Assembly (NCBI GenBank): GCA_016748015.1 | Contig: JAAOMT010000197.1 | Coordinates: forward strand, 334,939 to 398,938 | From: Geosiphon pyriformis | Taxonomy: Eukaryota; Glomeromycota; Glomeromycetes; Archaeosporales; Geosiphonaceae | Reading direction: 5' to 3' | DNA: 64,000 nt | Part shown: positions 4,421-51,599 of the stretch, piece by piece | Layout: each line of letters opens with the position of its first letter | How positions within the stretch are numbered: the first letter of the stretch is position 1 | Program-made: the position numbers and the translations under genes | Notes under the pieces: model-generated | The model's database searches: none | Told to the model about the DNA's origin: nothing | Seen by the model: the letters and a program-made list of their open reading frames with translations, nothing else

Positions 4421-5315
4421 NNNNNNNNNNNNNNNNNNNNNNNNNNNNNNNNNNNNNNNNNNNNNNNNNNNNNNNNNNNNNNNNNNNNNNNNNNNNNNNN
4501 NNNNNNNNNNNNNNNNNNNNNNNNNNNNNNNNNNNNNNNNNNNNNNNNNNNNNNNNNNNNNNNNNNNNNNNNNNNNNNNNNNNNNNNNNNNNNNNNNNNN
4601 NNNNNNNNNNNNNNNNNNNNNNNNNNNNNNNNNNNNNNNNNNNNNNNNNNNNNNNNNNNNNNNNNNNNNNNNNNNNNNNNNNNNNNNNNNNNNNNNNNNN
4701 NNNNNNNNNNNNNNNNNNNNNNNNNNNNNNNNNNNNNNNNNNNNNNNNNNNNNNNNNNNNNNNNNNNNNNNNNNNNNNNNNNNNNNNNNNNNNNNNNNNN
4801 NNNNNNNNNNNNNNNNNNNNNNNNNNNNNNNNNNNNNNNNNNNNNNNNNNNNNNNNNNNNNNNNNNNNNNNNNNNNNNNNNNNNNNNNNNNNNNNNNNNN
4901 NNNNNNNNNNNNNNNNNNNNNNNNNNNNNNNNNNNNNNNNNNNNNNNNNNNNNNNNNNNNNNNNNNNNNNNNNNNNNNNNNNNNNNNNNNNNNNNNNNNN
5001 NNNNNNNNNNNNNNNNNNNNNNNNNNNNNNNNNNNNNNNNNNNNNNNNNNNNNNNNNNNNNNNNNNNNNNNNNNNNNNNNNNNNNNNNNNNNNNNNNNNN
5101 NNNNNNNNNNNNNNNNNNNNNNNNNNNNNNNNNNNNNNNNNNNNNNNNNNNNNNNNNNNNNNNNNNNNNNNNNNNNNNNNNNNNNNNNNNNNNNNNNNNN
5201 NNNNNNNNNNNNNNNNNNNNNNNNNNNNNNNNNNNNNNNNNNNNNNNNNNNNNNNNNNNNNNNNNNNNNNNNNNNNNNNNNNNNNNNNNNNNNNNNNNNN
5301 NNNNNNNNNNNNNNN
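4421..5315. other. Assembly gap (N run)
   Basis: There are 895 consecutive N. By comparison with LINE-B the missing part should hold the rest of RNase H and the C-terminal zinc-finger region of LINE-A. Open frames spanning it are artefacts of unknown bases. Confidence 1.
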
Positions 5316-5424
5316 GCGTGAGCTGCATTTAGTTTAAGTCTCTTAGTTTGGTTTTATATACTAGATAGCAGTTGGACTTCATTTGTTAATTGCATTAATA
5401 AAAATAAATAAATAATAACATATG

Positions 5425-7313: not shown

Positions 7314-8711
7314 AGTTTGAGAAGCAGACGTATTCGAAGTTTACAGGTAATTCTGAAGACTTCAGCTAGAACGACTGTCGAAATCATATCTTTTGATGTT
7401 GAGTTAACTCCTTTTTAATTCATACAGGATGAATCTGAAGAACCTGGCCCTTCGCGCCGAACAGCCGCTCATACACCACAGCGTTCTTTTGAGCGTCTTA
7501 AAGCTACCTCCAAGCGTAGAAGAGACGTAGAAGACGAAGTTTCAGATGTCTCGCTCGGCGAAGATTCTCCTACTGAGATCCCTCTGACACCTGCCAAAAC
7601 AGCCCTGTCAAAGCTAACAGACGAAGTGAGAATAATTTCTAATGGACAAAACGTTTATTAAAACTTTTTAAATGAATATATCATCATTGAAAATAGGAAA
7701 TCACCCGTAAAGTCAAAGGCTTGGTCAGGCTCGCTTTGTGTTCAGAACTCAAAAAAGTACCAATAAGACGGGAAGATATAATGAAAAAAGGTATGATGCT
7801 AGTGTTTTAATTGGTTTACAGAATTAATTTTGTATTTATGCTTTCTCCCAATCTACAACGCGTTCAAGTACTGCAGGAACATTCAAAGGTTTTTCAAGAA
7901 ATATTTGATCGAGCCCAATATGAATTACGCGATATTTATGGGATGGAGTTGGTTGAATTGCCGACTAAAGAAAAGAAACCCGCGACCCGTAGCGGAACAG
8001 TACGACGAGGTATTTATTTCGGGTGGTTTTATTGCATTTCTAAGTTTTATATAAATTCATTTATTTTCATTTTAGCCACATTGAATAATAAAGCGACATC
8101 TTCAGCTTGTAAATCCTACACACTTGTGAACATTCTTCCTGAAGAGTTGAAAGGTGACGATATTATTCATTGGCAAAGGGATGAAGAATCAATAATGGGC
8201 TTGCTAACTGTTATCCTCAGCCTTATTTTGGTTAATGGACATATATTAACCGATGGTAATCAATCCCATTCCAGAACATTACATTATTTCTTCATGGCTT
8301 TTTTTCATATTGTAATGTATTTACTTCAATAGACCAGTTAAAGGATTACATCACTCGTCTCCATCTTCATGAAGCGAATGAGACATTTGGAGACGTTGAA
8401 AAATTGTTGTTGTCATTCGTCAAACAAGGATACCTGGGTCGTCAAAAATCTGGTATGATAGATCAAATATCGGAAAAAGAAAATGTGGAGTATATTTGGG
8501 GACCACGGGCTAAAGTGGAAATACCAAAAGAAAACTTAATCCAATTTATCAAGATGGTTTGGCATAATTTTTATATAACCAAAATTTCCGTTGAACCTTT
8601 TCAATTACAGTCATATAATATATATTCAATACACGTTCCTAGATTTTTGGACCGGAAGCCCCACAAGATTTAGCCCGGCAGATCGAAAGGGTTTCAGGTT
8701 TCGATGGTTGA
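7314..8711 (+). CDS. NSE3-like MAGE-domain subunit of the SMC5/6 complex
   Basis: MAGE-domain (NSMCE3/Nse3) family. In other eukaryotes Nse3 works with Nse1 and Nse4 in the SMC5/6 DNA-repair complex in the nucleus. Proposed exons are 7314-7346, 7428-7625, 7697-7790, 7869-8009, 8076-8255, 8333-8556 and 8643-8711; the frame closes through all introns to TGA at 8709-8711, giving at least 312 residues. The N-terminal third is basic and acidic and looks disordered. The MAGE winged-helix part runs from about residue 80, with YGMELVELP, an ILSLILVNG hydrophobic helix, and a C-terminal block ending PQDLARQIERVSGFDG. The true start codon is not seen and lies upstream of the first listed exon, which is itself tentative. 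The gene converges on the RING gene with a 190-bp gap. Confidence 0.8.
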
Positions 8712-14714: not shown

Positions 14715-17487
<2,773 letters not shown>

Positions 17488-26187: not shown

Positions 26188-27145
26188 TTTCTAAAAAAAT
26201 TTAATATCGAAGAATTGGATAAAAGGAAGCATCCCAATCATTTTTGAAATCTTCTAATATACACATCTTTTTCAATTTGACTGAATCCCAAGTCTGGGGA
26301 GTTGACAAAGCAATGTCACAAAGTTTATTTAAGTATTAGGAATTTGATGACCCAAAACGCATTAACCTGCTGGGACCTAGATCCTTCCTTTGAATAAGGT
26401 ACTTTTGTTATAACTCTAAAATATACTTTATATAAAATCAGGTTCCCAAACTTACTGCCGCTTTGGTCAGCATTAAGAGAAGAAAATTGAAATCACATTC
26501 GGACACAGGAACATTGTAATTCTAAATTGTCTTGAGGAACTGCAGGTAAACACTTACCGAGTGGTGTTAGATTTTAAAGAAGTCACCTAGAAAAAGGATG
26601 GACAGAGAGCGAAAGTTTTTAACTCGCACATTTACATCAATAAAAATTTTATCCGTGAAGAGATTTGATGACGTAGTAGGATAATTCGTTGGATTTTTAC
26701 CATTCAAGATTAAAAACAGATTCGATTTACTTGCTTCCTCCAAGTAAAAATTTAAAAATGAAAGAAATCAAAAGATAAGCGGATATGGGAAATTTGACCA
26801 TTTTTGTCTTTTGGTCGAGATCAATTAACCAGCATGGGTTTAATAATCCTTGAAATTATTACGTTTAGATAAGAGTTTTAGGTGAAAAGCTTCGATCCAT
26901 TATGCTATTCAAAACTGAAAATTAATTACTCTGTGCTAAAGTCTATTACCTCGGATGCTGTAAAGCCTACCTAATGGGATCAATCCTAATAATTTAGAGA
27001 ACACCTATAAACAGCTACTACTCATTATATTTGTTACTGAAATATCAGTAATTATTATTTAAATATCCTATTTCAACCTATTTATTGAATACTCTCGCTC
27101 TTGGGCGGATTGCAACACATCAATAATAGGCAATACTAAGCATTG
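26188..27145. other. Intergenic upstream of eL32
   Basis: About 960 bp holding the presumed eL32 promoter and leader. No coding, RNA or repeat feature could be supported. Confidence 0.4.
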
Positions 27146-27860
27146 CTATGTAAACCCTATTATTTCCTCCATGGTCACTGTAGGCCCGGAGAAAGATCCC
27201 GAACTTCTATCTATCACAATCCCATAATTCCGGCAGTTGTACATTTCGAACCCCCCCCCCCATTCTTTGGATGTTGCCACATTGACTACAAGTCTTGGAT
27301 GTGTAAGCTTCGTTCTGGATAGTAACACGAGCCCTTAATTCCTCGGCCTTGTTGATCAGGCGTTGTCGAAAGCAATAATACGCCAACAAAGCATTTCCCG
27401 GTCTGTTTTTTATGTAACCCTTCTTGTCTTGCGATTCACCATGTCCGACACTTCAAAAAGAGAAATAACAATAGCATCAAATTCACGGGTGAAGAATCTA
27501 ATTGATTTCAGATGAATTTCACTTTGTAGATGTATAACTTTTTGACACATCCGAGAAATCGCTTTATCGAGTCGTCAGGCCATTTCATTCTTACGTTTTG
27601 AGGAGGATGTTAATAACTTATCCTTTTAGCAAATAAAATCATTCAAATACCTGCAAATACCAACTATACGTCCAATAGAATGTTTCCCAAGCTTGCCTAG
27701 ACCTTTTGTAGGAGAGTACCATGTAAAAGGTGTACGGACGCCAGAGACAGCATGAACAAAGCCATCTGCTTGAGTTTCGCGGAGCTGTTTTTTGCATCTC
27801 GTATATCCATGCAAACTTCCACTCATTAGTTTGACGATAGTAAATGAACTCGCCATTCGA
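27146..27860 (-). pseudogene. Decayed Fanzor (eukaryotic TnpB-like RNA-guided nuclease), C-terminal half
   Basis: Minus-strand fragments in several frames carry, in the right order, the C-terminal landmarks of Fanzor/TnpB. A RuvC-I-like block reads VSGVRTPFTWYSP (about 27756-27718), where Fanzors have a DPGVRT-type motif. A region with LFEVSDMVNRKTRR (about 27450) would be RuvC-II with its Glu kept. The zinc ribbon and RuvC-III end is NEAYTSKTCSQCGNIQ (about 27325-27280), then, after a frameshift, YNCRNYGIVIDR. The first catalytic Asp is lost, the second ribbon CxxC has one Cys replaced by Tyr, and the residue after DR that should be Asp is Ser. At least two stops and two frameshifts are present; one lies at an 11-base homopolymer (27251-27261) and could be a sequencing error. 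Not active. The family call rests on motif order only. Confidence 0.65.
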
Positions 27861-28556
27861 CATTATCTTGTGAGGAAAAGGCCACCTATTATTATACCTC
27901 TTTTTTTTCCGAAATGAAAAGGCCACACAGCACGCTCATCACTATCCAGAATGTTGGTAGACTTGTAAAGATAAGTAGTAAACATCAATAGATTATGGAG
28001 ATGAGTGACATAGAAACGATTCCATGTGGATTTCGAAAATTTTTTTGCAGATCTTTTCGAGATCGAACGATAGAATGTGCTGATAGGCCTTGCCGATTCG
28101 CATTACGCTTAATTACTTGTTCCCTAGCAATTAATGCTTCATCAATTATATTCACTTACGCTTTGCCGTGCATACCTTGAAGCAACATTCCGAGACACAC
28201 AACAGTTCGCACGAACTTGAACTCGCCCCATATTGCAGCTTTTCGAAAATTTTCATCTTCGTGTTCATTAGCGTTTTTTCCTGCCCAAACATCTGTGCGA
28301 AGTTTAAGTTTATCTTTGATGAATTGAGGCTTTATTCAAGCCAGTTGTGATGGACAGATATGGGAATTTTTGATATAAAAGCGGCGATGTTGACTCCAAC
28401 GACTGGTTCAAAAGCTGGTTTGAAGAACAGCTTAACTAATAATTTACAGTTGATAGTATATTCTATCTGACGTTTGCTATCGCTTTTCCCTTGCGTTTTT
28501 CCCCTGTTCTGAAAGTCTATCACGGTGGGTGACCACAATTTCCGCGGCTTGTTCAT
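27861..28556 (-). pseudogene. Possible N-terminal remains of the Fanzor copy
   Basis: The sequence immediately upstream of the Fanzor-like fragments holds broken minus-strand open stretches, including one at 28556-28332 starting MNKPRKLWSPT. The position is right for the N-terminal part of the same element, but motif support is weak and no continuous frame remains. The terminal repeats of the element were not found. Confidence 0.3.
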
Positions 28557-28959
28557 TCCAATAGGGTCAAAAGTCCCAATCGTTCACTGAGGAGTTGGTA
28601 GGTTGAAGAGCAAAGTAGGAGTTGCTTTTATCGCTCGGGATCCTTTTTAATAGCAGAAATGGTGAAAGTAGCTCCAGAGAATATCAAACTTGGGGTTCAT
28701 CAAACAGCAATATCTCAATCTCTTTTAACGATTGAAAAATTTTTTAAATAGCTTCAATTAAAAGATATGTTTGTAACCTCGTGAATTGTACTTCACATAC
28801 GAAGATATATTATAATAAAGCTCAACAAGTTTTCAATCTTTTTACGTTCACCAAAAATTATAAAAGTCCAAGAGAACATAAGTCAAAGTTTCTGCCTCGT
28901 GCTTGAACCTATTACCGTTCTTTTTCACCTTGCAAATTTCAATGGCGAGCAGATATCTC
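28557..28959. other. Intergenic between Fanzor relic and ICMT-family gene
   Basis: About 400 bp, AT-moderate. I see no feature. Confidence 0.4.
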
Positions 28960-29664
28960 TCAAAACAAAAGCGGAAGAAACATTTTCCTCTTTTCCTTAT
29001 ACTCATTCCACTCTTTCCCAAATCTCTCTTTCAAGGCTTTCTCCTCTATTTCAATACGTAACGTGGTAACGACCAAAATAATCACCACTTCAACCAAAGT
29101 GTACAGCCAAACTAATCGTATCCACCTTGCATGTTGTATCCATAACGGCCAAGACTTTACAATCCTCCAAATCAAATATGTTTCCGCAGCTTGAATCATA
29201 ATTAAACCACTATATGAGGGGTGCCTCACATAAGCGTACGGTCCCTCCTTAATCAAACGATGTTTCTCATGAATTGTAATTTGAAAAGTAAAAAAATGGT
29301 CCAAGGTTCTGAAGCACCAAATTCGTAGTAACCCACCAGCGATTCCAAGCGTTACAAGTATTATATCGGCTAAGGTCCAAGAAGCTAAAGGTGCTGCAAT
29401 AGGTGGTTGTTCCGTGTAGGGTGAAGTACATAGTTGAGAGTTAGAACAAATTGGATTTTGTTGATGATACATGAAGAAAAGGTAGGTTAAACTAATAAAA
29501 ATTGCGATGAATTTCTCTATGGAAAGTAAAAATTTAAATAATCGAGGTTTAGAAAAGAAGTGTTCACGTACGATTTGGCCAGATTCGTGAATTTCCGTTG
29601 GCGGGGTTAAAACGTACAATTTTAAAATTATTAGAACCGTGATTGCTAAGACTTTTGTATACAT
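28960..29664 (-). CDS. Isoprenylcysteine carboxyl methyltransferase (ICMT)-family membrane protein
   Basis: Single-exon gene of 234 residues. The ICMT/PEMT-family core is clear: EGPYAYVRHPSYSG (the conserved RHPxYxG) at about residues 139-152, and near the C-terminus an EEKALKERFGKEWNEYKE block, the cofactor- and substrate-binding end typical of the family. Four or five hydrophobic membrane segments surround it, the first at residues 5-20. Family members methylate the carboxyl group of prenylated cysteines at the ER, but many fungal members of this branch have no assigned substrate. The lack of introns contrasts with most neighbours. The start is the first ATG of the frame. The gene is intact. 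Confidence 0.85.
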   Translation of the reverse strand: MYTKVLAITVLIILKLYVLTPPTEIHESGQIVREHFFSKPRLFKFLLSIEKFIAIFISLTYLFFMYHQQNPICSNSQLCTSPYTEQPPIAAPLASWTLADIILVTLGIAGGLLRIWCFRTLDHFFTFQITIHEKHRLIKEGPYAYVRHPSYSGLIMIQAAETYLIWRIVKSWPLWIQHARWIRLVWLYTLVEVVIILVVTTLRIEIEEKALKERFGKEWNEYKEKRKMFLPLLF

Positions 29665-31517
29665 TCTTTTAAATTGTCAATAATCTTTCCTCATTTTAAG
29701 TTTTGCGGCCAACATTTATAGAATGAGTTTATTCTCCATCCATCAAAAAGTTTCGTGATCATCCTTGTTAATGCATCATTCTTTAGTAATATTATTTTTT
29801 AAGTAACTGTGTATGACAAGAATTGCGACTAGACTAAAGCGGGTACTAACTTGTTTGACATGTACACGTTATCACGCCAGAAATCAAACAGTTGCCACCA
29901 TGCTACACTGACCAAGAAGGCTTAGAGATTTTTTTTCCCACGTTCCCATGAATTTTTGAAAAAACGACCTGCAAAAGGCGTTTTGTCGTGATCTTGCACT
30001 ATCGAATTATTGTTAGGCCAATTGAACAACTTTGGGTGTCGAAAAATTTATGTCGATTCCAAAGTAATATAGTACACAAGACAGACAGAAAATGTTGTGT
30101 GAACAGACTTTGAACAGTGAAATGGAGAATCACAGCGAATTGGGATCCAAGGAAAGAGAGCGTGCAATTTTTTTTTCGATACCTCCAAAAAACAACCGTT
30201 CACAAAATTTATTAGTAGCAACAAATATGATAGTCACATGTTCTCAATCATTTGCCATTTGGAGTGTTTGCAACATTAGTTAACCATTCTTGGACCATTC
30301 GTGCCACGTGTTGAAATATAAGCAAATGATTGGTGGGGAAGTGTTAATAGTTTTTTGAGAATGTTGATCCTCTACCTCTGGATAGGGTTTTCGAGGGATA
30401 TTTTACCTGTCTCTTCCAACCTCTTTACCTGCTGACCTTTTTATTATTTAGTCCCTTTTAGAATTTAGGGAAATTGATGTCAACATCCAATTCTTATATA
30501 GAATAGATGTTAATGTTATATTTGTGTGGCGCGAATTATATCTTTCTGTAAAACAAAAAGGAAATTTAATTTGATGCATAATCGTGACAGTGACAGTGAC
30601 AATGACAGTGACAGTGACAGTGACAGTGACAGTGAATGATAACGGTGAAATTAGTAATAAGAAACAAAATTATGAACTACGCGACCGGGGCTATAAAAAT
30701 ACTTGCAAATTTAAGTTGGCCCAACTTTTTGATCGCTAATAATAAAGATTATTTTTTTCCTTTAAATCTAACTATCATAATACACACACGCGGATCCACG
30801 TTTTTTTATTAAACTGATTGATCATTATTCACACGACGCGTTTTATCACGTTTTATGATTTTAATGATGTTCTACTAAATTTATAGAAATGGTTAAAGAC
30901 TTTTCGTACGACATAGGACATGACATCACCCCCATTGTTTCAGAAAAATTTCTCGCCAATCATGAAAAGAAAAAAGTGTAATGCCTGTGCTCAGTTTACT
31001 CTAACCTTAATAGTAGAAGCTGTCTTAACAACGCAACTCGCGACCATCACCATCATCCAACATAATCATCGAAATTTTTTAGCACCACTGTACGCTCTCC
31101 CACTTCTCTTAACCTTTTTCTTCACCAAATTGAATTCTTGAGAGTGTAAAAAAAGTTCAACCCCCCTACCATTTACTGTCTCTATTCAAGAAAAATTTTT
31201 AAAACCTGGTCCACCTATTCTTTTCATTTCTGAACCCTGTCTGTGTACGGTTATATCTTTCCCATCACACTACTCAAGTCTCTTTTGGCAAACCTCTCAA
31301 TCTTTTTATCAATTTCATTATCTGGGAACCCGAACGCGCGCGCTCGGTTTAAAAAAACAATCTAGCCCAGGAGGAAAATTGAAAGCAAATTACAAAAATA
31401 AAGCAGAAACAACCAACCTTTTCTCCTCACATACACACACACCTCGAAGAAATTTGCATACTTTCAACTATTCTGAAATACTTGGCCAGTCCATCTTGGA
31501 GGCTGTGCTGTATCAAA
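29665..31517. other. Long intergenic region upstream of ICMT-family gene and cyclin
   Basis: About 1.85 kb between divergently transcribed genes. It holds a hexamer repeat (30584-30634) and pyrimidine- and CA-rich tracts before the cyclin (about 31140-31500, including a short ACAC run near 31431-31442) that look like promoter or leader sequence. Short open stretches at 30092-30283 and 30920-31141 lack family features. Confidence 0.45.
30584..30634. repeat. Hexanucleotide microsatellite (GTGACA)n
   Basis: About eight tandem units of GTGACA with one substitution (CAATGA), in intergenic sequence. Confidence 0.9.
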
Positions 31518-32302
31518 ATGAATCACGCGCCTTTAACCGTAATTGAAGTTCCAGAGCTCTTCTATAGAGTTGACCCAATTCATTTGATGAATATGATCGG
31601 TTTGTAAATATTACGCTAGAATCCTTTTTTTTTCGAAAAAGATACACACTGTTGGAAGAATGGGATGGAAGGCTCCATGAATTTTCGTTTTGTATCTTTC
31701 AAATATTTTTTTAAATTTTCAGCTCATTATTCTTGTCAAAATTTTACGCTCATATACACACAGCTGATATGTTGGGTCGACTAATCGCCCATAATGATCA
31801 AATACCCCTGACACCTTCCAACCTCACCAGATTTCATTCTCGAGCCCCGCCTACCATATCAATAGCCGATTACCTTCGGCGAATTATTCGATATACCTCG
31901 GTGGAACGTGTCTGTCTTCTTATCATTCTTATATATATAGATCGTGTGTGTGAAAGGCACAGGACATTCACAATATCTTCTTTAACTGTGCACCGTTTCA
32001 TAATTGCCGCTGTTACCGTGTCATCCAAAGCACTGTGTGATTCCTATTGCACAAATTCACATTATGCACGAGTTGGTGGAATATCTACACAGGAATTGAA
32101 CACTCTTGAACTAGAGTTTTTATCACTGATCGATTGGCATTTAATTTGCCCAGAGGAGACTATGCAGAGTTATTATGTGAATTTAGTAAAACAACATCCC
32201 AACTATCGCAGAGTCATTTCTTCAGATTCTGATCAGTATGATTCTACATCGCCCACTCTGGGCATCTCACAACCGGATGTCCATATGCAAGAGAACACTT
32301 AA
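31518..32302 (+). CDS. PHO80-type cyclin
   Basis: Cyclin of the PHO80/Pcl group, which in yeast pairs with the Pho85 kinase in phosphate signalling and other controls. Exons 31518-31599 and 31764-32302 give 621 nt, 206 residues; the junction codon is split ATCG/CT and yields MIADMLGRLIAHND, a typical family opening. The cyclin box follows: PPTISIADYLRRIIRY, then LLIILIYIDR, then FIIAAVTVSSKALCD and YARVGGIS, and ELEFLSLIDWHL. The short C-terminal tail is Ser/Asp-rich. The start is the ATG of MNHAPLTVIEVPEL. The gene looks intact. Confidence 0.88.
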
Positions 32303-36547: not shown

Positions 36548-39500
36548 CTAGGCACCTATATACACTGAGACCAAGTTACCTACACCTGAAAAGAATAAAC
36601 TAGATTTCCGAAACCCAAAACCAACACCAAGTGCATCAGCAATACCCAACAATCTAACCACACTGGACAAGAGCACCAAAGGAAGACCAGAAACTGAGAT
36701 AGGAATAGAGCCATCACACGAAACCAAGCCACTTTTTTCCATAACAGCTCTGTGTTTCATATGCACCAACCAAATATCATTATGGAATGCAAGACAGAAT
36801 TCGCGAATAAATGCCACAATATTTTGAGCCACTGTTTTAGAGTTCTTAAAAACAGAAAGAGATTCACGATACTATTCATTGAAAACAAAGTCCTTACATA
36901 TAGCCATACTAATAACAGCATTGGAAGTGCAAGCAAAAAGCAACTGTAAAACACATGAAGTTGAATAAGATAAACCTGAGTGCGTTTTCCAAACAGATAC
37001 ATAAGCGTTTATCAACTGAGCACGATCACCAGCATCGAATGAACACGAAAACACATGATCTGAAATTTCAACATTACCACAGAACAAACACATCACATTG
37101 AGGTACCCCTTATCATAAAGTCATTTTCGCACAGCAACAGGAAGACGATGATGCAACGCCTTCATAAAATATGTCCGAGATCCAGCAGTATGAGCACTAG
37201 TGAAACCAGTGGCCAAATGAGAGTCCAGATGCCACACTGAACATGATCTGAACCAATCAACATCAGCACGTAGGCTGTCCACCAATATCCGAGAACCAGA
37301 ACCGACCTCCCAATGAGCACGTTAAATAGAGCGGAAAACACCACGAACAAAATGCCTAGAATTACCAGAAACCACAATACTGCCAGCCTTGAGAAAATGT
37401 TCATCAATCCTGTGAGGAAGATGCACACCAGAAGACACAGCAGCCCTAGCCAAAGTGTTAGCACACTCATTGCCCAAAACTTCAGAGTGACCTCTAACTT
37501 TAATTCAATTAATATCCAAATTTTTGCGACGAATGACATTAGAAATATGGCGGTGTTTAACCTAATACCGATTCCTGAAATCTGGACACTCCAACATTAA
37601 CTCTGACTTGCATGCATTCAAAGCGGCCTGGCTGTCCGAAAACAGATTAACCAAACAAGAAGGAGAAACACACTCGAGAGCCAAAGCAATAGCCTGCAGC
37701 TCCGTCATGATAGAAAAAACCAAACCAGAAACTTCCACACCCAAACCCAAATCAATGTCCTCAAAAAAAACAGCTGCACCAGTCTTCATACCAAGAGTAC
37801 CCAGCCCACACAGAGAACCATCTGTAAACAGAGAAAGGCGATCAGAATCAACCTTCAACAAGCGATTGCAAACAACATCAAACTCACAAGACTCAAGTAC
37901 ATCAGACAAGCCAACATTTAATGGCAAAAGAGAACAAATGGGAGATGACCCAGAACCAGACAAAAAGCAAACAGCAGCATTGAACCAATCAGGAATTGGG
38001 CCTTGAGGGTCCAGTCTCTTCCACCGCTTGAAAGTCCTCCATTCGAAAACAGAACCAGTTCGATCGCAAAGCTGCTCAACAAAGACAATTCCATATTGTC
38101 GAAGCAAAGAGACACATTTATAAAAAGTAAACTTGCCAAGAACAATAGACATTGGGGTCCCCTTTTGAAAACAAAAAACATTGGTCACGAGACCACTCAG
38201 AGAAAGGTTGCAACCCAAAAAAATCCGAACGACACCAGCCAAAAAATTATTCAAAGAACTGACATTAATACGAGAAGGGAAAAGCAGGGGGTGACGAGGG
38301 CACCAGCTGAGAACCTGTAAATCATGAGACCTATGCACGAACAGGCAGCCCAAAATACCCACTGAATTGGCAAAACAAATAACAGCAGCTGACTTGCTTT
38401 CAGCCTGGATCTGTTCAAAAGATTTCAACCTGTACAGAGAAGGATGATGAATAGCATCATTGGGAAAGTCGAGTGACAGGCCAGATTTGGACTTCAAACC
38501 TTTACAAATCATAGTGTCCCATTTCACACACACACTAATAGGAACAAAACTAAACTGAGTCCTGTAGGCAATTATGGGGTGAAGAACCGCCGACACCAAA
38601 TACAAAAATTGCTTATCAGAGATAGCTTTTCTCAGAACAAGGTTGGTGAAAAACTGGACATCCAAGCATGCCTTAGCCAAGCTAGGCTTTGATAAATCTT
38701 CAGTAGACAGAAAGATACCTAGGTACCAATGAGGCTCTCCCCTTTTGGCTATCAAAATAGGCAAACCACTAATCAACAAATGAGGGCTGGAAACTCTACA
38801 ATTAATGAGAATGGCCACCGTTTTGTCATTATTGATCGAAATGTCATTGACTCTAAAAAACTCACTAACAATATTGAGAATATGTTGGGTGGCAGTCTGG
38901 CTGCTACCAATCCAAATCGTATCATTGACGAAAACACCAGCAGCGAGGAAAGAAGTCAAACCAGCCCGAGATTTAGCATGATCAGTGTTGGCAACAAAAC
39001 GAGAGTCTAACCTGTATCCACATACACTTTCTTGTCTCTTGACCTTACACAAAAGGGAATCATAAAATATGCGCTAGAGAAGAGGAGAAAACACCTCCCC
39101 TTGATCCAAACCATCATGTACCCAATATTCATCAGTCAACCCAAAATTTGTCATAACTCTGTTGACCCGATCATTGTGGATGCTGCCAAAAAACCGAATG
39201 AATTTGTTACACATTTTTATTCTGACCAAGCTCTTCCTCAGATGCTCCCAGCCAACAGAATCATAAGCTTTTTGCATGTCTTACAAGACCAGCCACAGCT
39301 CTCAGTTCTTCTCCAAAGCATTCTCAATGACCGATCCAATAGCGAAAATAGGAGACTGCATGATCGTGCCTTTTAAAACAAAAAAATTATTCCCCTTCAG
39401 AACGTCAAAAACACTACAAGCCGAAGAAATTCTGTCTGAAAGCACTTTAGAAAGGATTTTGCGAGCCGTCTCAACCAAAGCAATAGGATGGGTATTTGTG

Positions 39501-41236
39501 AGAATGCCCTACCACTCATATGGTTTGGGGATCATTGACACCCAAGCCTCCTTCCAAGGCCCAGGAACAGATTCCTGCTCCAAGCAAACATTCAAAAGCA
39601 CTAAGAGCATATTCAAAACTGATTTGTTGCAATGTTTCCACAACTCATTCGAGATGCTAGAGAGACCAGCTGCTTTCCCATCAGGCAGGTTCGAAACGAC
39701 ACTAGACATCTTATCAAAATCAATTAGGCTCATTACACCAGAAAAAGCATCATCAAAAACATACTCTAAAGGCTGATATTGGTGATCCCAAACACCAGTA
39801 ACATCAGAAACTACATTGCACTTCCTAGTCCATTCCTCCATGACTGCATCTACTTTGGCCTTAACCAGAGCAGACTCCAAAACCAACTCATCATCAACAA
39901 CCAGATGATCCAAAGTTACTTTGCAAAAAAGATGTTCCAACACACTCCTAATAGTATGATCTTTGTCCAATTCAAAACTTTCCATCCTCTTATCTATCGC
40001 CGATCTGATTTGAGATTCTCTAACTTGCTTCACTTCCGACATTTTGAATGCGTGATAAGACTTTTTGACCTTAGACAAAGCTGACCGAATAGCATCGAAG
40101 TAGGAACCTGATAGGAAGAGAGACTTTACCGCAGAAGCATTGACTGAATCCAAACCTTCCCACCTGTCAAGCAAGGATGTAAACTCTTTAGCAGAATCCA
40201 TATGAGATGCTTTAACTAACTTAGACACCAAGAGCTCTAGCTTGTGAAATTTGGACGAATCCTTGCTAAAATTTTTAACATATCTTTTGAACCATTTTTT
40301 CTTGAAAACTGTCTCAGCAGACAGACACATTACTTTATGGAGAGCAACCCACATCGAATTCAAGTCCGAGCGGACTCTGGCTGCAAGAAAATCATCATGA
40401 AACATAGCAGCATTTGCTGCCGTATCTTCTTTAAATTTGGCCCATTTAACATCATCTGCACCTTTGTAATCGTACTTTCAGTGATCTCTATTTGCTTGCT
40501 TGCAAACAGAATTCAACTGAACATCGAGCAGACCACTCAAACCCACTAACACTGAGACAGCCAGATGATCAGTATCAAAGTATTCCCCAATGCCAAACAC
40601 ATTGCGACCCACTATCACATTGACCAGATTTGAAGAAATAAACATAAAATCAATCGTCTTAGCAATACCCCAAGAATTGGACCAAGTTGGCAATTTCCCA
40701 CAGGAGCTCCCACCCAAGGCATTAACCAGACCCAAATTCAGACACTTTCTAAAACTTGCACATTTGTGAGAACCGTCTTCATTGAAATCGTCACTGAAAA
40801 CAACGAAGAAAGATTCATTAACAGTTTTTGCAATGAGAGAGTTGACTTCGCCAGCCTGAGAGAACCAAACTGCTGAGAAAGCACCAGCATACAGATCCAG
40901 AATAGACACCGAAAGTTTATTTTTGAAAAGTAACTTAATAGACAAGAGCCGACCAGGCACCTCTAATACTTTGCACATATGCCTTGCCAAAGAAGAATTC
41001 ATGACGACTACAACACCAGCACCCAGATATCCAGATTCCAAACCAGAGGTAAACATCTGCACACCATCATATTTGTTGACAATCCAGGGGTGAATTTTTC
41101 CTTTTAACTTTGATTCTGTAAAAATAGAAACTAAATTGTTCTTCTCCATATGCCAATGAATGACATCATCTTGTTTTGCAAGATTATTCATACCTCTGAC
41201 GTTGCAAGTAGCAATATTTCAAACCAGACTGTTCAT
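36548..41236 (-). pseudogene. LINE-B ORF2 (APE - RT - RNase H - zinc finger), stops but no frameshift
   Basis: One continuous frame of about 1560 codons. APE endonuclease: about 41236-40480. Reverse transcriptase: about 40400-38400, with GLDQGEVFSPLL and the catalytic box reading FVNDT instead of FVDDT, so one essential Asp is lost. RNase H: about 37870-37400, with LFTDGS, ELQA and SDSQAA. A zinc finger follows at about 37100, C-x2-C-x7-H-x4-C (CLFCGNVEISDHVFSC). In-frame stops lie at about 41219, 40478, 39509, 39350, 39074, 37562, 37513, 37330, 37255, 37115 and 36870; where LINE-A or the family gives a comparison most replace Trp. Length and order are as expected for the family. Confidence 0.85.
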
Positions 41237-43023
41237 TAAGATGAAAAGAAATTTGAACCCGCCCCAAAACTGTCCACTTTGGCTAAAAGTCCCAGAACTG
41301 TTTCCATCAGACACTTCATGCTGTCTTCCAACTTGAACACCAAAGATACATTGAAAAACACCGCACCCACAACAATCTCACCACTAGTGGCTGTACCTGA
41401 ATCCTTACTTATCACTATATCCGCCCCTTGATTCTGTGATGAAGGGGTCACCAACAGCTGACATCCAGGGCTTGGCTGGGAAACCATTGGTCCAAGTGCA
41501 TCCAGCCTCTTAGCCAGCTTACCCATCTGCTCCGCGAGGCTGGCGAGACTGTGCTCAAGAGCAGCAAACCTATCATTGACTTCTATTGAAACTGGCAGGG
41601 ACGGCACCATCTCCGAAGAGGAACCAGATTTCACTGAAGCATTTTGTCCAGAGAGAGGAGGAAAAGAAGACTCATTAGCAACCTTTGCCCAAGAGAGGCC
41701 ACCGAAAGAGACTGGACGAGCAACTGGAGCTGATCACTTGGTATAGATGGCTGCTAATCTGCTTTTATCTGTGTCTGACAGGACTCTACGCGAAGACAAA
41801 CCTGAAGAAACTCTCTCACCAATTGCACAGCCCAATGACATATGGCCTGATTTCCCACACTTGGCACACTTGGCCGAAACAAGACAAGACCAGTGTAGAT
41901 TGGTGCCCTTTAACACTGGTGTGGTTCCCATGATGGCATTCAATGATTCAGCAGAATCAAAACAGATGACAGCACACCTAGCCCTAGCATACATAACCAG
42001 ATGATGATCAATAACACATGTCTTCCCACCCACAGAACCAATAAAATCCCAGATGTTATGAGTAGTCGTTTCCATTGGCAGAGTATAAAACAGCGCCCTA
42101 TGCTGGTCCTTCACATCCCATGATTTTTTGTCCAAATCTGATCTAGCCACCCGCACAGCATCCTTTCCAATTAAGATTGACCACTTTGCCATGACCAAAT
42201 CAGCATGATCTGATTGCTCAAATTCTATCACAGCCTTCTGCCACAGCCCCACCAATTGCATCTTGATCAACTTAATTATCCCAAACTCAGAGAGTGCAGC
42301 GCACACAGCCTCAGCTGATGTTCCAACAGGAATTTCTTTTAACACCACAGCCCGATCTGAGCGACCAGCTGATCTCTTAAGATTGGTGTTTACCATGATA
42401 TTCACACTAGTAGCTTTTTCAATGGCTTTCATTAGACCCGATTCAGAAGTAAATGTTACTCTGATGATCCCTGAGAACTTTGAGGGGGTAGATGCCCCCC
42501 CAAAACCATTGATTCCTGAAAATAAACTCCTGATCCTTTTGAGCTTTTCCTGGGCCAAATTTCCTTCTACCACTTTTAGATCTAAATCCAAAGCAAATGA
42601 CTTTCTAACAGAAACATTGACCAGGTTCTTAAGAGGAGGAAAAAGCACCAGAGAGGCATCCAGAAGAATATCATCATTATCATTGTTATCCAGGAAGTCG
42701 ATCTTTCCCAAAGGTTTTCCCAATGCTTTCCTAGTTGTCACCTGTGAACCTTTTGGCGTTTGATCTAAATTTCCACCAACGAGTACACTACCTTCACCAT
42801 AATCAAAACTTGTTTCCTCTACAAGACACTCCTCTTCCATATCAACACTGTCAGATTCTGTGGTATCACCAGTCTCCAAACCCCATGAACGACCACTTTG
42901 CATCTTAGCAGAACCCTCTTCAGCACCAGCATTGTCCTCAAGAACACCGCCTCTTCTCTTTTTCCTTGACAGAACAGCCTTGAAACCACCCTTAGAGCCA
43001 GAACTTTTAACTATCTGTTTCAT
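41236..43023 (-). pseudogene. LINE-B ORF1 (RNA-binding, CCHC knuckle), one internal stop
   Basis: A 595-codon frame from the ATG of MKQIVKSSGSKGG with a single in-frame TGA at 41734-41736, most simply a CGA-to-TGA change. The N-terminal third is acidic and Ser-rich. A region at about residues 220-300 looks RRM-like (VVLKEIPVGTSAEAVCAAL). The zinc knuckle is CAKCGKSGHMSLGC, and a C-terminal heptad stretch (FAALEHSLASLAEQMGKL) suggests self-association. It ends at TAA 41238-41236, overlapping the ORF2 ATG by one base. Confidence 0.85.
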
Positions 43024-43183
43024 GACAGCAATACTAGGGCCAACAACAGCCTCGTAATCAAGCAGAAATGGTTTGGATTTATCGTACTGAATGGTAAAAA
43101 ACTTCTTCCAAAAAACTTTTGACTCTTTTTTGGGATTTGTGGAGGAACGAGAGAAAGAAGTTTTTGTTTATTGTTTTTAATAA

Positions 43184-43193: not shown

Positions 43194-44467
43194 ATTTAAA
43201 AAAATAATTATATTATTGTGAAAAAAACCAAAAGTTATTTTGTTATTAAATTTATTAAATTATTATATTTTAAACAATATTATTCAGATTTTATTAAAAA
43301 CTATATCAAATTGATTATAAAACTAAAAAATTTTAAACATATTTTTTAAAATAGTTTTAAAAATAATAATTTATTAAGAGAATATAAAAAATATTTTAAA
43401 AAATTCCAATTATAATTATCTATATTTTTATTGTTGTAATTACTATTTTTTTAAATCCGATTTGGTTTTACCAGTAATTAAAAAACTATTAAATTAAAAG
43501 AATTAATAGATTTGTAACAATTTGTTACAAAAAAAATCTGTAATAATCTTGAAAAAGCAGTAATTTAATATTGTGATACGTAATTTTGTTTGTTTCGTCG
43601 ATCACTGTGCCATATATGGCGCAGTGATCGACGTCTCAATCTGTTTTAAATTATGTAATATTAATTATTTTTATTAGTTAAAAATAAATTACATATATTA
43701 TATCACATGGTTTTTGAATTTAATATATGCCATCTGTATATTATAATATAAAAATACATCAAAATTTTTGGTGTAACTGCTTTTATTCTTGTACAACAAG
43801 AAGTTTTTTTTGTTTTAAACAATATTTAAGTTACAAAAAAAACTTTTATATTATAAATATAAACATAAAAATTTGTATATTAGATATAAGCTAAAAATTC
43901 TAAAGTGTTAAAGACAACAAATTATATAAAATTTGACTTTTTAAACTATTTTAAATAATATTCACTTAAATGTATCAATTAGTACTATAATTAATAGTAT
44001 ATTAGCAATTTTAAATATAATATATTATATATTATATTAAGGTTAATATTTTAATATAAACATAAGGCAAAAAAAAATAACCAGTTTGTCTTTAAAAGAA
44101 AGTATGTATATATGTCTAATAAAAAACTATGTGTTAAAAGACTAAAATTATTTCTATTCTAATTTAGAACTTATTTTTAATATAGAACTGGTTAATTAAT
44201 TTCAAAATTATGTTAGTAAAAATTTATTTCAATTAAGTAACCAAGTATCTATAAATGAAAATAAGATTTTTATTATATCTTAACACTAAAAAATATGCTT
44301 TGATGTATCAAAAAATTTTAGATAATATTCTTTACGAAATTTAATTTTTTATAAAATATGTAGATTTATCAATTACTATCCAAAAAATTATTAAAAATAA
44401 AATTTTCAACAGTATTTATTCTTAATTATAACCTTATGAATACAATACAAAGATTTAAAGTTTATGG
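43194..44467. other. AT-rich desert between LINE-B and the Gypsy element
   Basis: AT-rich with dense stops and no coding relic. The only GC-bearing landmark is the palindrome at 43596-43633. Confidence 0.6.
43596..43633. repeat. 38-bp near-perfect palindrome
   Basis: Two 19-base arms (CGTCGATCACTGTGCCATA and its complement) meet without a spacer, with one mismatched pair. It stands out because it holds nearly all the CpG of its neighbourhood. GATCACTGTG recurs at 62896-62905. Confidence 0.85.
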
Positions 44468-45435
44468 TATTACCAATAGAATTTTAGCTCTTAAATTAGC
44501 TGAAATTACTTTTATAATTCTTATCATTAATTAATATATATTAAATATTGTTTTAATTATCACTTATTATTTAATCAAATTATTAAATATTACTAATTAA
44601 TTAATAATCTAATTTGTACAATAAAAAGTAAAATAATCAAATTACACAATATTCCAAACTATATAATATTCAAAAATTCACCAAAATTTGTAGAAATTTG
44701 CAAAATATCTTGATAGTTTACTGAAACTATTCATAGTTTGTAAAAACAATTTGTAGTTTATTAAAATATATCTTTAATTTATCAAAATTATAACAAAAAA
44801 AAAAGTTTAAGTTCATAAACTAGTATTATAACAAGTTATATAAAAGAAAAGCTTTTTTCTTCAAAAAAATATATTTTAGTTAGAATTAATTATTTTATAC
44901 ACATTTTTACAAAAAAACAAATAAAAATTAAATACTTTAAAAACTTAACTTCTTTAAATAATTATACTTGACATTCCTTAAAATCTAACTAACATTGTTA
45001 AAATTGATTAGTTACCAATTTTAATAATCAATTATTAATTCTAGATCTAAACAAAAAACAATTCTTTTAACAAAATTTTATTTTTTTTACATTTTTTTTA
45101 TTTTTTTTTATTTTTTTTATTATAATTATTAAGATAGTCTACAAATAAGATTTTTGCAAAAAAGTTGATTTTTACAGTAAAATAACTATATATTTCTAGT
45201 AAACTTTTAGATAAACAATTTCTGAAAAAAAGTTGATATTTATTACAATGTAATTATACAAAGTAATTAGCACAGAATTGGCCATTTTATTTATAAGTTC
45301 AGCAGTTCAAATTATAAGAAATAATTTGAAAATAAATTCAGTTATTAAAGGTTTAAATATTTTTAAAAACATGAATTTACAGCAGACAGGCATTAACATT
45401 ATATAAAAAAAAGAGGCCAAAAATTTTTGGTAATA
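44468..45435 (+). repeat. 5' LTR of the Gypsy element
   Basis: Aligns along its length with the 3' LTR (54289-55140), with the solo LTR (59908-60900) and, inverted, with 49965-50896. The start is TATTACC, derived from the TGTTACC seen in other copies, and the end is GTAATA, from GTAACA. The boundaries are inferred from the copies. Confidence 0.75.
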
Positions 45436-45599
45436 TTTAATGCTTTTCTTATAAAAATAACACAACAATAACAACTTCAAAAGTGGTAACTGCATTAGAC
45501 ATAACAATTTTAGAGTACTATCAGTTAATTTACACTCACTGTAAACAACAATTTAGAATTTAAGACAAAATTATAGTTTTTAAGAAAACACTTTTCCAA

Positions 45600-46760
45600 T
45601 ACATTAAAAACCAAATTAATAAATGCTTTTTTAGAGACTACAATATTACAGAAATTAAGTGAAATCTTCTTGAAAATCTCATTCACTACTTAAACAAAAA
45701 CCCAAAAAACATTAATGCTAATAGTTGTGCTACTTATTTTAAAGAACTTAATTATAATATTATTATGTTTTGTGAAAAAAAATATCTTGCCAACTTACAA
45801 TTTATTTTTGAACTTAAGTCTAAATTTGAAACAAACAAAAAAATATGTGACTAATTTATACAACACCTAATACACTGAAAACAATCTTTTAATACCTGTA
45901 GACACTAAAACAAGAAACTAGTTCTAAATTACTACTTTTAATCACACTCTTTTCAGCTTTACTTGCTCAAACCCAAATACCAAATTCATTACTCAATTAT
46001 TTTTTACATTACCAAAAAGCCCAACACAATAGCTTAAACAAATTTTTACTAGTATCAATCTTCTTGATTTTCTAGCAGAAAACCAAAGCAATTACTTTGA
46101 TAACAATGAAAACATTTCTGAATCTACAGAAAAAAAAACTACTAAAAACGAAAATACAGAAGATATAACAACTATTTATATTGCAAAAATTACTAAATTC
46201 ACTAGAAAAAATATTAACACCAGTCCACAAAAATGGCTTGACAAAGTTCAAAAAACAGAAAATATAAATAAATAGAATGCAACAAGAATATTAAAAACAA
46301 TTTTATATTTTTTTTAAAGAACAGCAGAAAAATAGTTTAAAAACTTGACTGAATTCTTTAAAAACTAATAAGTATTCAAAAATGCTTTCCTGAAACAATT
46401 TACTAACAATAACATTTTTATTACTCTTCAAAATTATTTTTGCAATATTAAACAAAAATTATCTAAAACTGTTATAACCTATTTTAAAAGATTCAATAAA
46501 CTTTTTTAATAAATTTGACAATTGAAAACCAATAATTACTACTTTAATATCTAGATTTTGAATTAATTTATTGCAAAATTAAAAAACAAACTCATTAAAA
46601 AAGTTTGACCACATATTTTAGAAGATTTAATCATTGCTATTTAATATGTTAAAACTTATAAAATAGCAATAAAAAAAGCTAATTACACCAAACTTGTAAA
46701 TTTTGCAATTGAAAAAACCAGCTCAGTAGCTAAAAAAAAGATTAATTAATTGACAAAAAA
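45600..46760 (+). pseudogene. gag relic of the Gypsy element
   Basis: Discontinuous plus-strand translation with a capsid-like helical region: KWLDKVQKTENIN at about 46230-46270, then stretches such as FKNAFLKQFTNNN and QNYFCNIKQKLSKTVITYFKRFNKL. Stops occur at expected Trp positions. Nothing usable remains. Confidence 0.65.
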
Positions 46761-47339
46761 AGTCAAAAATTATTTTACCAATTAATAACAACAACAGCAA
46801 CAAAGATACTAATTATTCTAATAATATAATCAAAATAACTATGTAGTATTATCAAACAACCAATCTTAAAGCTATTACTATTGTAGAATTTCTGAATACT
46901 GGAAATAAAATTGTCAAAAAATGCAATAAAACCAACAACAAAAAAATAATTAATATTATTCTTAACTTTAGCAATCTTATTACCAATTTTCATTACTAGC
47001 TTATTATTTATCAAAACTTTAATACCAGAATAATTACTATCAATTTGCTTCACAACCTATTTAATAATAGTATTAATAACTACCAGCTTAGTAATATCAA
47101 ATATTTGTCTTAAAATTGGGTCAACAAAACCAATTTACATCTCAAAACCAATTTGTAACAAACAATAACCAATTTAATTTCAATAACCAATTGATTTTCT
47201 AAAACCCAGTTCAGTAAAAACCAATACATTACCACACTCAACTCAGTTATTTTACAATGTCAGAAGAGTTGAATTTTCAATAAACTGCATTTTTTGAAAG
47301 TAAAACTACAATACCAAGACAAAACTTTTCTAATAATAC

Positions 47340-47720
47340 AATTTTATTAGCCAGAATTGTTCAAAATGCCAACTTCTTGAATATATTTTCATTTAAATTT
47401 GAAGTCAATAAATTACCATTTCTATTTAGTAATACAGTAGTTAATAAACAAAAGGTGATTACAGTAATATATACAGAAACCAAAATTGAAGAAAAACCAA
47501 TTTGGTTAATTTGAAACAGTATATCTGCTAGAAGTATTATCATTTATCAGTTGATACAACAGCTTAAACAAAACATTAACAAACCAGTCCAAACAGTTAT
47601 TGTCACAGTTGATGTTATAAAAAAACTTTAATAAGAGAAATTAACAATTTTTCTTTTATAATTAATAGAATTACTATTTTAGTTAAAGTTCTTATGATAG
47701 ATATATTCCAATATCAAGCC
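47340..47720 (+). pseudogene. Retropepsin (protease) relic of the Gypsy element
   Basis: Plus-strand fragment reading NSISARSIIIYQLIQQLKQN (about 47514-47573), matching the DSG-S-x-x-S-I-I start of Ty3/Gypsy proteases with the catalytic Asp changed to Asn, followed by PVQTVIVTVD. Several stops follow. Confidence 0.6.
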
Positions 47721-47999
47721 CTTATTAAAAACAATTGGCTTCTCAAAGCCAATGCAAACCTAAATTGAGAAACCCAAAAACTTAAAATTTTATACCAAAA
47801 ACAATATATTTAAGTATTTACTACATATAATACTTTTAATAAATAATCCAAAAAAGCCTTAGTGCTTAAATTTAAAGAAAAAAAAATGCCAATTACTAAA
47901 ACATAGATGGCTCTTAAATTAACATTCAATTGGGCTGAAAAAACAAAGCAAAAAATCTTTAAGAAAACCAGAGAATGAAACATTGTTTAGTATTTAATA

Positions 48000-49220
48000 C
48001 CAAAATCATAGAACAACCACTTTATATCTTACTTAAATATAAAAACTACAACAAAAAGCTTTTATTAATGGGAGTCTGCATATTCTCAAAAGAGAAATAT
48101 GAAACACATACCTGCTATTTTTGTAAAACATGCCATAGAGAACAATTCAGATATTTCAAATAAAATAAAAAATAAAACAATACTTTTTGTTTTATATGTA
48201 AAAAAATGCTACCAAAAGAATACAACTGAATTAATGTTGCAATGAAAAGAAAAGTTTGTAATCAAATCTGTTAATATGCACTTTTAATTGCAGAAAAAGT
48301 AAAAAAAAGAACCTTTTTTAATACAACATATAACAATGTCTTTAACAAACTCTACTATTACCTACACAATACTAAAATAATCTACAAATTGGTCATGGTT
48401 TTAATTAATAAAAGAATTCAAGAAAATGTATGCCAAATAAAAAAAGCAAAATACATTAAGTATACAATAGAATTAGCTGGATTTAATTATAAAAATGAAG
48501 TAGAAACTTATTACCAAATTACAAGCTATGTTTACCTGACCAAAAAAGCTCAAATTTAATAATTAAAGCAAATGAATATTCAATTATATAAAGAATATAT
48601 TATGCCTTGTGATAACTAATAATGTCCAGAATGCTATTCTCTTAACACCTTTTTGCCCAATAAAAAAGATAAACATGAAATCGAATTTAAAAATTCTGAA
48701 CTGGAAGAAAAAATTACAATCACATTAATCTACTTGGTTAAAAACCAGTTTATTATACAACTCAAATATTTTAACAACAATGATCAAGAAATTTAACCAG
48801 AAAAAGCCCATGAAATTAATATTAAATATGATCTATGATATTCTAATAAGAATACTTTAATCTTTTAATTCAAGTCTCTAACAAAAATCAATCTAAAAAT
48901 TGCTTTCAAAATTTTATTAAGAGCAATAGTTCAAATTGCTTCTTGATTATTATTGGCAAGCAAAAAAATCAACATTAGAGAAGAAATTATAAATACAGAA
49001 TATACTGAAGACATTACAATTTTGTTACAAAATAAAACTAATAAATCATTCAAAATTAAGTATACTAAAAAAACTGTTTAAGCAATCTACTTATTTTTAA
49101 TTAATATTTCAGGTTTATAATTAGTTAACAATAGAGAACAATTAGGAAAAAGTAAAAAAAACCCCAAGGTTTTGGTTCAACTGGACAATTCACAGTTGCA
49201 GTAAATATAACTTTCAATGT
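48000..49220 (+). pseudogene. Cys-rich region and dUTPase relic between protease and RT
   Basis: Cys pairs (TCYFCKTCHREQF at about 48107-48145, then CFICKK near 48190) precede a dUTPase-like sequence. dUTPase motif 1 appears as AHEINIKYDL (from about 48809), and the substrate motif 3 as IINTEYTEDI (about 48987-49016). Motif 5 is almost intact, QGFGSTGQF at 49165-49191. dUTPases hydrolyse dUTP and would limit uracil in the element cDNA. Stops and at least one frameshift break it. The position between protease and RT differs from lentiviruses, where dUTPase lies between RNase H and integrase. Confidence 0.75.
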
Positions 49221-49639
49221 ATAAAATAAATCTTACCAGATTTTTTGACTTTTATAACTAATTACCATATTATCTTTTAGAAAACATTACAAAATTTACA
49301 CTTGCCTAAAACCAACCACTATTCAAAAAATCTTTAAATCCAATAAACAAATTTGTTAAACACATGAAATCTTAATCTTAAACATTTATATTCCAAAAAA
49401 AATGAAAAAATTTTGAGTTATTTTTTACAATTTAAATAACTACTTCATTATTTTATTAAATAAAATAGAAATTAGAATTATACATAGTAACATTTTTTAA
49501 GAAAAGCTCTCAGATTGTTTTTAATTTTATTGAAATTGTAAGATATACACTATTTCCAAACCCAAATATTAATTTTATAACTAAAAACTATTATATTTTA
49601 GAAAAAAAACTTTTTCAAATCAATATAAGTCTTTTGGAA

Positions 49640-51560
49640 TTCCAACAACAAAGACAATTAAAACAGTTGATTGCCAAATATACTAATATATTTGCCAAAG
49701 ATAATAATAATCTTGAAAAAACCAATATTGTATAGCATTAGATTTATACAGAAAATGTTCTACTAAAATATTAACAAATCTATTAAGTTTTATCTGCTAG
49801 CCACAAATTCATCAAAGAAAAAGTTCAACAAATACTCAATAATGGTCTTATCTAATCATTAAAAAGCCTTTGGGCCTTACCAATAGTTTTTGTTAAAAAA
49901 AAAATGGCAAAATCAGATTTTGTATAAACTATTAACAACTAAATAGTGTCACAATTAGAAATGGTATTATCAGAGGTTTTTGGTTTCTTTTTTTAATTGT
50001 TGTTAATGTCTGTTTGCTGTAAATTTATGTTTATTAGAAGTTATTAAATCTTTAATAACTGAATTTATCTTTAAATTATCTCCTATAATTTGAACTGCTG
50101 GACTTATAAGTAGAATAACCAATTTTATGCTAGTTACTTTATATAGTTATATTGTAGTAAACATCAATTTTTTCTCAGAAATTGCTTATCTAAAAGCTCA
50201 ATAAAAATGTGTAGTTATTTTGCTGTAAAAGTTAACTTTTCTATAAGAATTTTGTCTGTAAGTTACCTTAATGATTATAATAAAAAAAATAAAAAAATGT
50301 AAAAAAATATAAAAAAAATAGAATTTTGTTAAGAGAATCGTTTTTTGTTTAGATCTGAAGTTACTAACAGATTATTAAAATTGATAGCTAATTAATTTTA
50401 AAATGTTAATTGAGTTTTGAGAATTTCAAGTATAATAATTAAAGATTTGATTTTTATTTAATTTGTAAATATATGTAAAAAATAATTGATTTTAACTAAG
50501 ATATCTAAGAATAAGATACATTTTTTCAAAGAGAAAAATTTTTCTTTTATATAATTTGTTATAATACTAGTTTTTGAATTTGCATTTTTTTTTTTGCTAT
50601 TATTTTGATAAATTAAAGATACATTTTAACAAACTACAAGTTATTTCTGTAAACTATTGATTATTTCAGTGAACTATTAATTATTTTTACAAATTTTTAC
50701 AAATTTCAGTGAATTTTTGGATGTTATATAGTTTAGGGTATTGTATAATTTGATCATCCTAATTCTCATTGTATAAATCAAATTATTAATTAACTAATAA
50801 TATTTGATAATTTGATTAACTAATAAGTAATAATTAATAATAGAAATTATAAAAATGATTTTATGTTAATTAATAGCTAAAATTCTACTAATAACAATAT
50901 TTATTTACTATTAAAAATCAACAACATGCTAAATGCTTTAGGAAAGCCAAGTTTTTTTTAACTTTAGACTTAGAAAACAGATACTAACAAGTTAAAATAA
51001 ATTCTAAAAACTGTTCCAAAATAGTATTTATTACTTAAGGAAAAAATTACAAGTTTAATATAATGTTTTTTGGACTCTATAATAAATCAACAATATTTTA
51101 AAGACTTATGAATATTGTATACAAAAGATTTTTATGGCAATTAGTAGTTATTTATTTAAATAACATTGATCTATATTCCTCAAATTTTAAAGCTTACCTA
51201 ATTTACTTGTGAAAAGTTTTTTAATAATTATAAAAAACAAGATTAAAGTTAAACATTAAAAAATGTTACTTTGAAAAAACAAATTTGATTTTCCTTAAAC
51301 ACATTGTCGACAAAGATAAAGTTCAATCTAATCTAAGAACAATTAGTGCTATTAAGAATTTTCAAGTTCTCTAAAATACTATAAAACTAAGAAAATTTAT
51401 ATAATTAGTCTCTTATTACTGAAAGTTTATCAAAAAAATTTTTAAAATCACTAAATTACTTAATCACTTAATCAACAAAAATATAAAATATCAATAAATA
51501 CAAGCTTAACAATAAGCATTCAATATTTTCAAAGAAAAACTTATTACAACTTAATTTTTG
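49640..51560 (+). pseudogene. Reverse transcriptase relic, split by a nested LTR
   Basis: The first part (49640-49964) carries the pre-RT and N-terminal RT signature: an HKFIKEKVQQILNNGLI-like stretch at about 49805-49855, then VFVKKKMAKSDFV. The second part resumes after the nested LTR (50897 on) with INNMLNALGKPSFF and further finger and palm fragments, including a former YLDD region near 51150. Many stops are present. Confidence 0.7.
49965..50896 (-). mobile_element. Nested solo LTR, inverted, inside the Gypsy RT
   Basis: The reverse complement of this segment aligns with the LTRs at 44468, 54289 and 59908 along about 930 bp. The two halves of the RT lie on either side. It is therefore a later insertion of the same family, reduced to one LTR by recombination. 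Confidence 0.8.
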
Positions 51561-51599
51561 TCTATTCAAATTTTAGTAAAAAGTTTCAGTTATTATTAA

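Follow-up and report, generated by a model that had tools for sequence, protein, structure and literature searches.

Fossil remains of a probable IS607-type transposon with a Fanzor2-type nuclease gene in Geosiphon pyriformis

A gene island on contig JAAOMT010000197.1 of the glomeromycete Geosiphon pyriformis carries broken reading frames that resemble Fanzor nucleases, which raises two questions: what kind of element left them there, and does it still have functional relatives in this genome? The island lies in a stretch of 64,000 nucleotides, hereafter called the window, to which positions refer. A first-pass annotation had recognized a Fanzor relic at 27146-27860 and had taken it to imply active relatives elsewhere in the genome. 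The explanation that best accounts for the whole, to which we assign a probability of about 0.93, is that the locus preserves the fossil of an IS607-type transposon of eukaryotes, about 1.6-2.0 kb long and with a Fanzor2-type nuclease, now functionless except as a historical mark.

What remains of the element in the window

The Fanzor assignment is confirmed by two protein models and by sister copies from the same genome. The open reading frame at 27207-27452 (minus strand) matches PF07282 (Cas12f1-like TNB) with an E value of 1.9e-10 and 41 bits, for a cut-off of 26, and the guided_TnpB model NF040570 with an E value of 2e-7. The flanking frames are matched by sister copies: in tblastn, frames -1, -2 and -3 of the window are 46-71% identical to them over the main segments. 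The four motifs on which the first reading was based are all present on the minus strand, between 27146 and 27862, and follow the RuvC order; from the N to the C terminus they are GVRTPFTWYSP (~27.74 kb), EVSDMVNRKTR (~27.44 kb), YTSKTCSQCGN (~27.29 kb) and CRNYGIVIDR (~27.22 kb). The features are collected in Table 1.

Table 1. Features of the Fanzor relic and of its gene island (positions in the window)
Feature	Position	Strand	Basis
Degenerate IS607/Fanzor2-type element, left end gone	27103..28662	-	Own-genome DNA search and right-end pattern
Fanzor pseudogene in several frames, ~5 in-frame stops	27146..28510	-	tblastn with sister-copy protein pieces
tnpA (IS607 serine recombinase) remnant	28512..28662	-	DNA alignment to the tnpA region of L032, L035, L005
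RuvC-I region HAVS---GVRTPFTWYSP, IDP of DPG motif deleted	27503..27793	-	Alignment to L002
RuvC-II alternative Glu and first half of TNB zinc ribbon (NEAYTSKTCSQCG)	27207..27452	-	PF07282, NF040570
Second half of ribbon and RuvC-III, next frame (YNCRNYGIVIDR)	27146..27334	-	ORF list against sister pattern CRNC-4-D
Non-coding transposon right end, ...ATTGATGTGTTGCAATCCGCCC	27103..27180	-	Right-end pattern, end alignments
Imperfect hairpin AAATAATAGGG...GCCTATTATT inside right end	27122..27165	-	Conserved across copies
ICMT-like methyltransferase, adjoining the Fanzor relic	28960-29676		
MAGE-domain protein (island host gene)	7811-8332		
Elongation factor 1-alpha exon (island host gene)	14825-15847		
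Cyclin (island host gene)	31715-32302		

The pseudogene runs from about 28510 down to 27146 and has suffered several frameshifts besides the stops. Two catalytic aspartates and one ribbon cysteine had been counted as lost. The cysteine is indeed gone, CRNC having become CRNY, and so is the first catalytic aspartate: RuvC-I reads S---G where sister copies have SIDPG (AVSIDPGIHTPFTWYSP in L002). In contrast, the RuvC-III aspartate (VIDR) is kept, so that only one catalytic aspartate is missing, and the RuvC-II alternative glutamate (NEAYTSKTC) is retained as well. A second aspartate near RuvC-III, in the DRDENG block of sister copies, has disappeared from the window copy (DRSSGS); in the Fanzor pattern this residue has no catalytic role (PMC10711439). 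The extent first given covers the Fanzor part, and the true extent, 27103-28662, takes in the tnpA remnant and the right end. That remnant is shrunken, with an internal deletion of about 190 bp relative to its counterpart in L032, the right end shows 3 mismatches to the right-end pattern, and the copy has no left end.

A family of broken copies with common ends

The genome searched comprises 124.7 Mb in 406 contigs. The own-genome DNA search scored 40 candidates, in which it matched 74 pieces, most of them 69-82% identical, and many of the alignments stop at one base, which marks a sharp right end (...ATTGATGTGTTACAATCCATCC). The 22-base right end, with at most 3 mismatches, occurs at 86 places including the window copy, compared to 1 in the reversed control, and the left end GATGAAAAGATTTGCTTAATAATGCC at 25 places, compared to 0. 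PF07282 finds 123 places, about half of them above its cut-off. With so many copies, the two ends and the insertion site can be defined, and a likely cut-adjacent motif as well.

The better-kept copies share the order left end, tnpA, Fanzor, right end, and those larger elements in which both ends are present are about 1.5-2.0 kb long. Upstream of Fanzor they carry YLYARVSSAKQKEDLERQ-like and HRDRLCRF-like stretches, and their tnpA matches the IS607 transposase model NF033518 with E values of 1.8e-13 (beside L041) and 5e-21 (beside L035). These matches stay below the full-length cut-off of the model because all copies are broken. HTH models find nothing in the fungal tnpA pieces; the HTH is present in the bacterial relatives described below. 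In the Fanzor gene of sister copies, the N-terminus matches HTH_OrfB (PF12323; E value of 3.7e-5), and DPG stands at RuvC-I in six loci (L002, L007, L009, L025, L034, L058). Sister copies also have the NEAYTSKTC, CRNC and DRDENG blocks, no one copy being perfect in all three, and conform to a pattern in which an alternative glutamate stands 6 residues ahead of the first CxxC, followed by a CxxC and, 4-8 residues further on, an aspartate. Since sister copies carry an IS607-type tnpA, the relic can be narrowed to a Fanzor2-like gene, and the family is taken, on its sequence, to be of the IS607/Fanzor2 kind, which is already known.

Two copies have a peculiar structure. One element of only 0.76 kb (G000, contig C317, 1061374-1062130) has both IS607-like ends around a mere fragment of Fanzor and is probably a non-autonomous deletion derivative. 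Directly upstream of the left end of L032, part of the tnpA region occurs a second time in inverted orientation, head to head with the first (positions 505-750 versus 1028-1250 of that locus).

The insertion site was read from 60 right and 20 left aligned ends. On the right, the base that follows ATCC is G in 43 of 60 ends (36 of the 42 in which ATCC is intact), and the sequence beyond is random; on the left, the flank before GATGAAAAG (GATG) reads A (13/20), C (13/20), C (10/20), against a flank background of 0.13 for C and 0.16 for G. Neither target-site duplications nor terminal inverted repeats are found at these ends. The insertion target is thus (A)CC|G. This agrees with the behavior of IS607: its recombination takes place at a GG dinucleotide, CC on the opposite strand, and its fixed right-flanking base becomes part of the guide-RNA scaffold (PMC10711439). 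From its position, the ACC of the left flank would be the motif beside the nuclease cut. A search for the empty site of one insertion, with the flanks of L048, found only the site itself.

The same ends bear on an alternative origin, in which a eukaryotic DNA transposon of the cut-and-paste kind (Mariner, MuDR, Helitron) picked up a Fanzor1 gene and the tnpA pieces are chance neighbors. Early-branching fungi commonly carry Fanzor1 (PMC3627910, PMC10432273). However, the tnpA remnant occupies the same place, in the same orientation, in many copies and within the same conserved ends, those ends lack the repeats and duplications noted above, and the nearest bacterial relatives retrieved are IS607 elements. 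Capture of a Fanzor1 is accordingly very improbable, and an IS607-type origin is preferred.

Is any copy of this IS607-type family still alive? Intact copies were searched for with PF07282, a 170-aa sister fragment, NF040570 and NF033518, in an assembly that has gaps and under conditions where an intron-bearing gene would match exon by exon only; the longest open frame at any listed match is 234 aa. None of the listed genome matches reaches the cut-offs of guided_TnpB (100 bits) or of the IS607 transposase (110 bits), and no intact copy is found among them. The expectation of active relatives in the genome is not supported: relatives are many, and every detected copy is interrupted. The Kimura two-parameter distances between sister copies and the window copy range from 0.18 to 0.26 (median 0.22). 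Among the compared copies there is no recent cluster and no close pair, except for one that belongs to a larger duplication. Because the divergence is nearly equal and close pairs are missing, the history of the family looks like a single old burst followed by neutral decay. The family also shows that Fanzor sequence in a genome is no proof of a functional nuclease.

Bacterial relatives and a second fungal family

The same genome holds another DPG Fanzor family, which is smaller and younger and whose copies share a 3' boundary (L001, 400-2700; L003, L016 and L004; contigs C354, C114 and C250 of G000). L001, L003, L016 and fragments are mostly 75-89% identical, and their ribbon reads CSQC...CHGC. 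By eye, a putative intron of about 90 bases (GTAAGT...AG) lies after FQTW and before YSPT. L001 was considered as an intact, spliced Fanzor and rejected: quite apart from the intron-like insertion, its frame is stopped by a TAA after GRKT and shifts further upstream. Stops also occur in L003 and L016, so that each of the three copies has at least one. Among solved structures, the best match of this group is the TnpB-like protein L79 (PDB 9b0l; E value of 4.7e-9), a mimivirus protein. L79 also matches the ribbon of the window copy (E value of 1.2e-4); it is an intact 520-aa protein of solved structure, whereas the window copy is a pseudogene. With the RuvC middle piece of the window family, phmmer returned only chance matches among solved structures.

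The L001 group served as the query in prokaryotic genomes. The relatives retrieved, about 50% identical, come from Chloroflexi, Cyclobacteriaceae, Lyngbya and Planktothricoides. Most of those with long frames have ALDPGVRTF or ALDPGIRTF together with a NEAYTSKTC-like block. L150 and L156, which were tested as TnpB, score 127 and 114 bits with guided_TnpB, above its cut-off; a full IS607 tnpA lies upstream in L152 and L158 (162 and 168 bits). These relatives fit the cyanobacterial pro-Fanzors (PMC10711439). The pro-Fanzor TnpBs of bacterial IS607 (Lyngbya, Planktothricoides, Chloroflexi) share ALDPGVRTFQTFFSP, NEAYTSKTC and RDVNGARGIFLRAL with the fungal element, as well as the order of tnpA and tnpB on the same strand. 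The ribbon differs: it is reduced in the bacterial proteins retrieved (CSWSG...GSDG), whereas fungal copies have CxxC...CxxC. ISDra2 TnpB and Cas12f share the TNB zinc ribbon and the RuvC order; they have canonical RuvC motifs and occur with a Y1 transposase or in a CRISPR context. The match between ISDra2-type TnpB and the second fungal family is weak (E value of 0.05).

Since the best database relatives retrieved are bacterial, one might think of bacterial contamination, or of an IS607 element with an ordinary TnpB that was recently acquired from bacteria. Contamination is refuted by the dozens of diverged copies on many contigs, and recent transfer is hardly credible, with proteins only 40-60% identical between fungus and bacteria in the ribbon region and copies that differ by about 0.22 substitutions per site. 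Zinc ribbons being common in many kinds of protein, a pseudogene of an unrelated zinc-ribbon protein could also be imagined, and is likewise refuted, by matches specific to the TNB and guided_TnpB models and by RuvC-I, alternative-glutamate and RuvC-III signatures correctly ordered in sister copies.

A maximum-likelihood tree of both fungal families, the bacterial relatives and a canonical TnpB shows three clusters, one for each fungal family and one for the bacteria, which lie together apart from the canonical TnpB; their order is not resolved. Placement in the Fanzor2 clade is suggested by the linkage to an IS607 tnpA and by the signatures. The two fungal families do not clearly group without the bacteria. 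It is conceivable, though we consider it unlikely, that IS607/Fanzor2 elements entered arbuscular mycorrhizal fungi repeatedly, once as the window family, which retains the bacterial arrangement of tnpA and tnpB, and once as the L001 group with its intron-like insertion, and that intact RNA-guided members survive in related species.

With the eukaryotic IS607/Fanzor2 elements already described (Bao and Jurka 2013, PMC3627910; Yoon et al. 2023, PMC10711439), the present family shares a tnpA upstream of a DPG/alternative-glutamate Fanzor, the absence of inverted repeats, a short dinucleotide-like target and a fixed right-flanking base. Unlike them, it has a high copy number, all the copies found are dead, and its target is (A)CC|G, with GG on the opposite strand. 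Fanzor2 has been broadly reported across fungi (PMC10432273). Arbuscular mycorrhizal fungi are not named in the searched text of PMC3627910 and PMC10711439, and the Fanzor literature searched contains no description from them; the record of these elements is here extended to this Glomeromycota fungus. In work on Rhizophagus transposons, much of the repeat content is unclassified and the curated library searches include no serine recombinase domain (PMC11075540), so that IS607/Fanzor2 elements may have been overlooked there. A giant viral region of Rhizophagus was considered as a source and set aside; the text of the paper mentions neither TnpB nor Fanzor. Viral contigs yielded no more than a canonical TnpB, present twice, and a single short fragment.

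Possible guide RNA, mode of propagation and surroundings

By analogy with known systems, the right end is expected to be the source of the 3' part of a guide RNA. It contains a hairpin (AATAATAGGC...GCCTATTATT) that the copies conserve, 93% of cells being paired. Two-sided changes in it are no commoner than in shuffles, and covariation is not significant. The fold of the window right end is no better than that of shuffles (z score of -0.17), and one well-kept copy has a z score of -2.85. The right ends fall into two subfamilies that differ by an 11-base stretch, which is why RNAalifold gave no structure when they were mixed. The Rfam search returned no relevant match. The inverted repeat of the right end could also be a binding site for the recombinase.

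If the family worked as its known relatives do, the tnpA serine recombinase would excise the element as a circle and recombine it into the short (A)CC|G target, with no target-site duplication. A Fanzor2-type RuvC nuclease, guided by an RNA transcribed across the right end into the flanking DNA, would then cut next to an ACC-like motif and might help the element to hold or regain its place. The family seems to have multiplied once, long ago, and then decayed, the window copy losing its left end, most of tnpA and one catalytic residue.

The gene island that holds the relic is flanked by two LINE-like copies in opposite orientation (1027-4300, plus strand; 37562-43167, minus strand). By eye, they have endonuclease-, reverse transcriptase- and RNase H-like frames, with no Pfam match in the frames scanned; a run of N of ~0.9 kb (~4400-5320), an assembly gap or a withheld stretch, lies inside the first. 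These LINE copies, together with the overall character of the sequence, suggest a host that is probably an arbuscular mycorrhizal fungus near Rhizophagus, whose LINE proteins they resemble. The G+C content of the island is 33-40%, and that of a long AT-rich stretch at 44000-64000 is 10-24%. Short AT tandem arrays occur at 59.3 and 61.0-61.3 kb.
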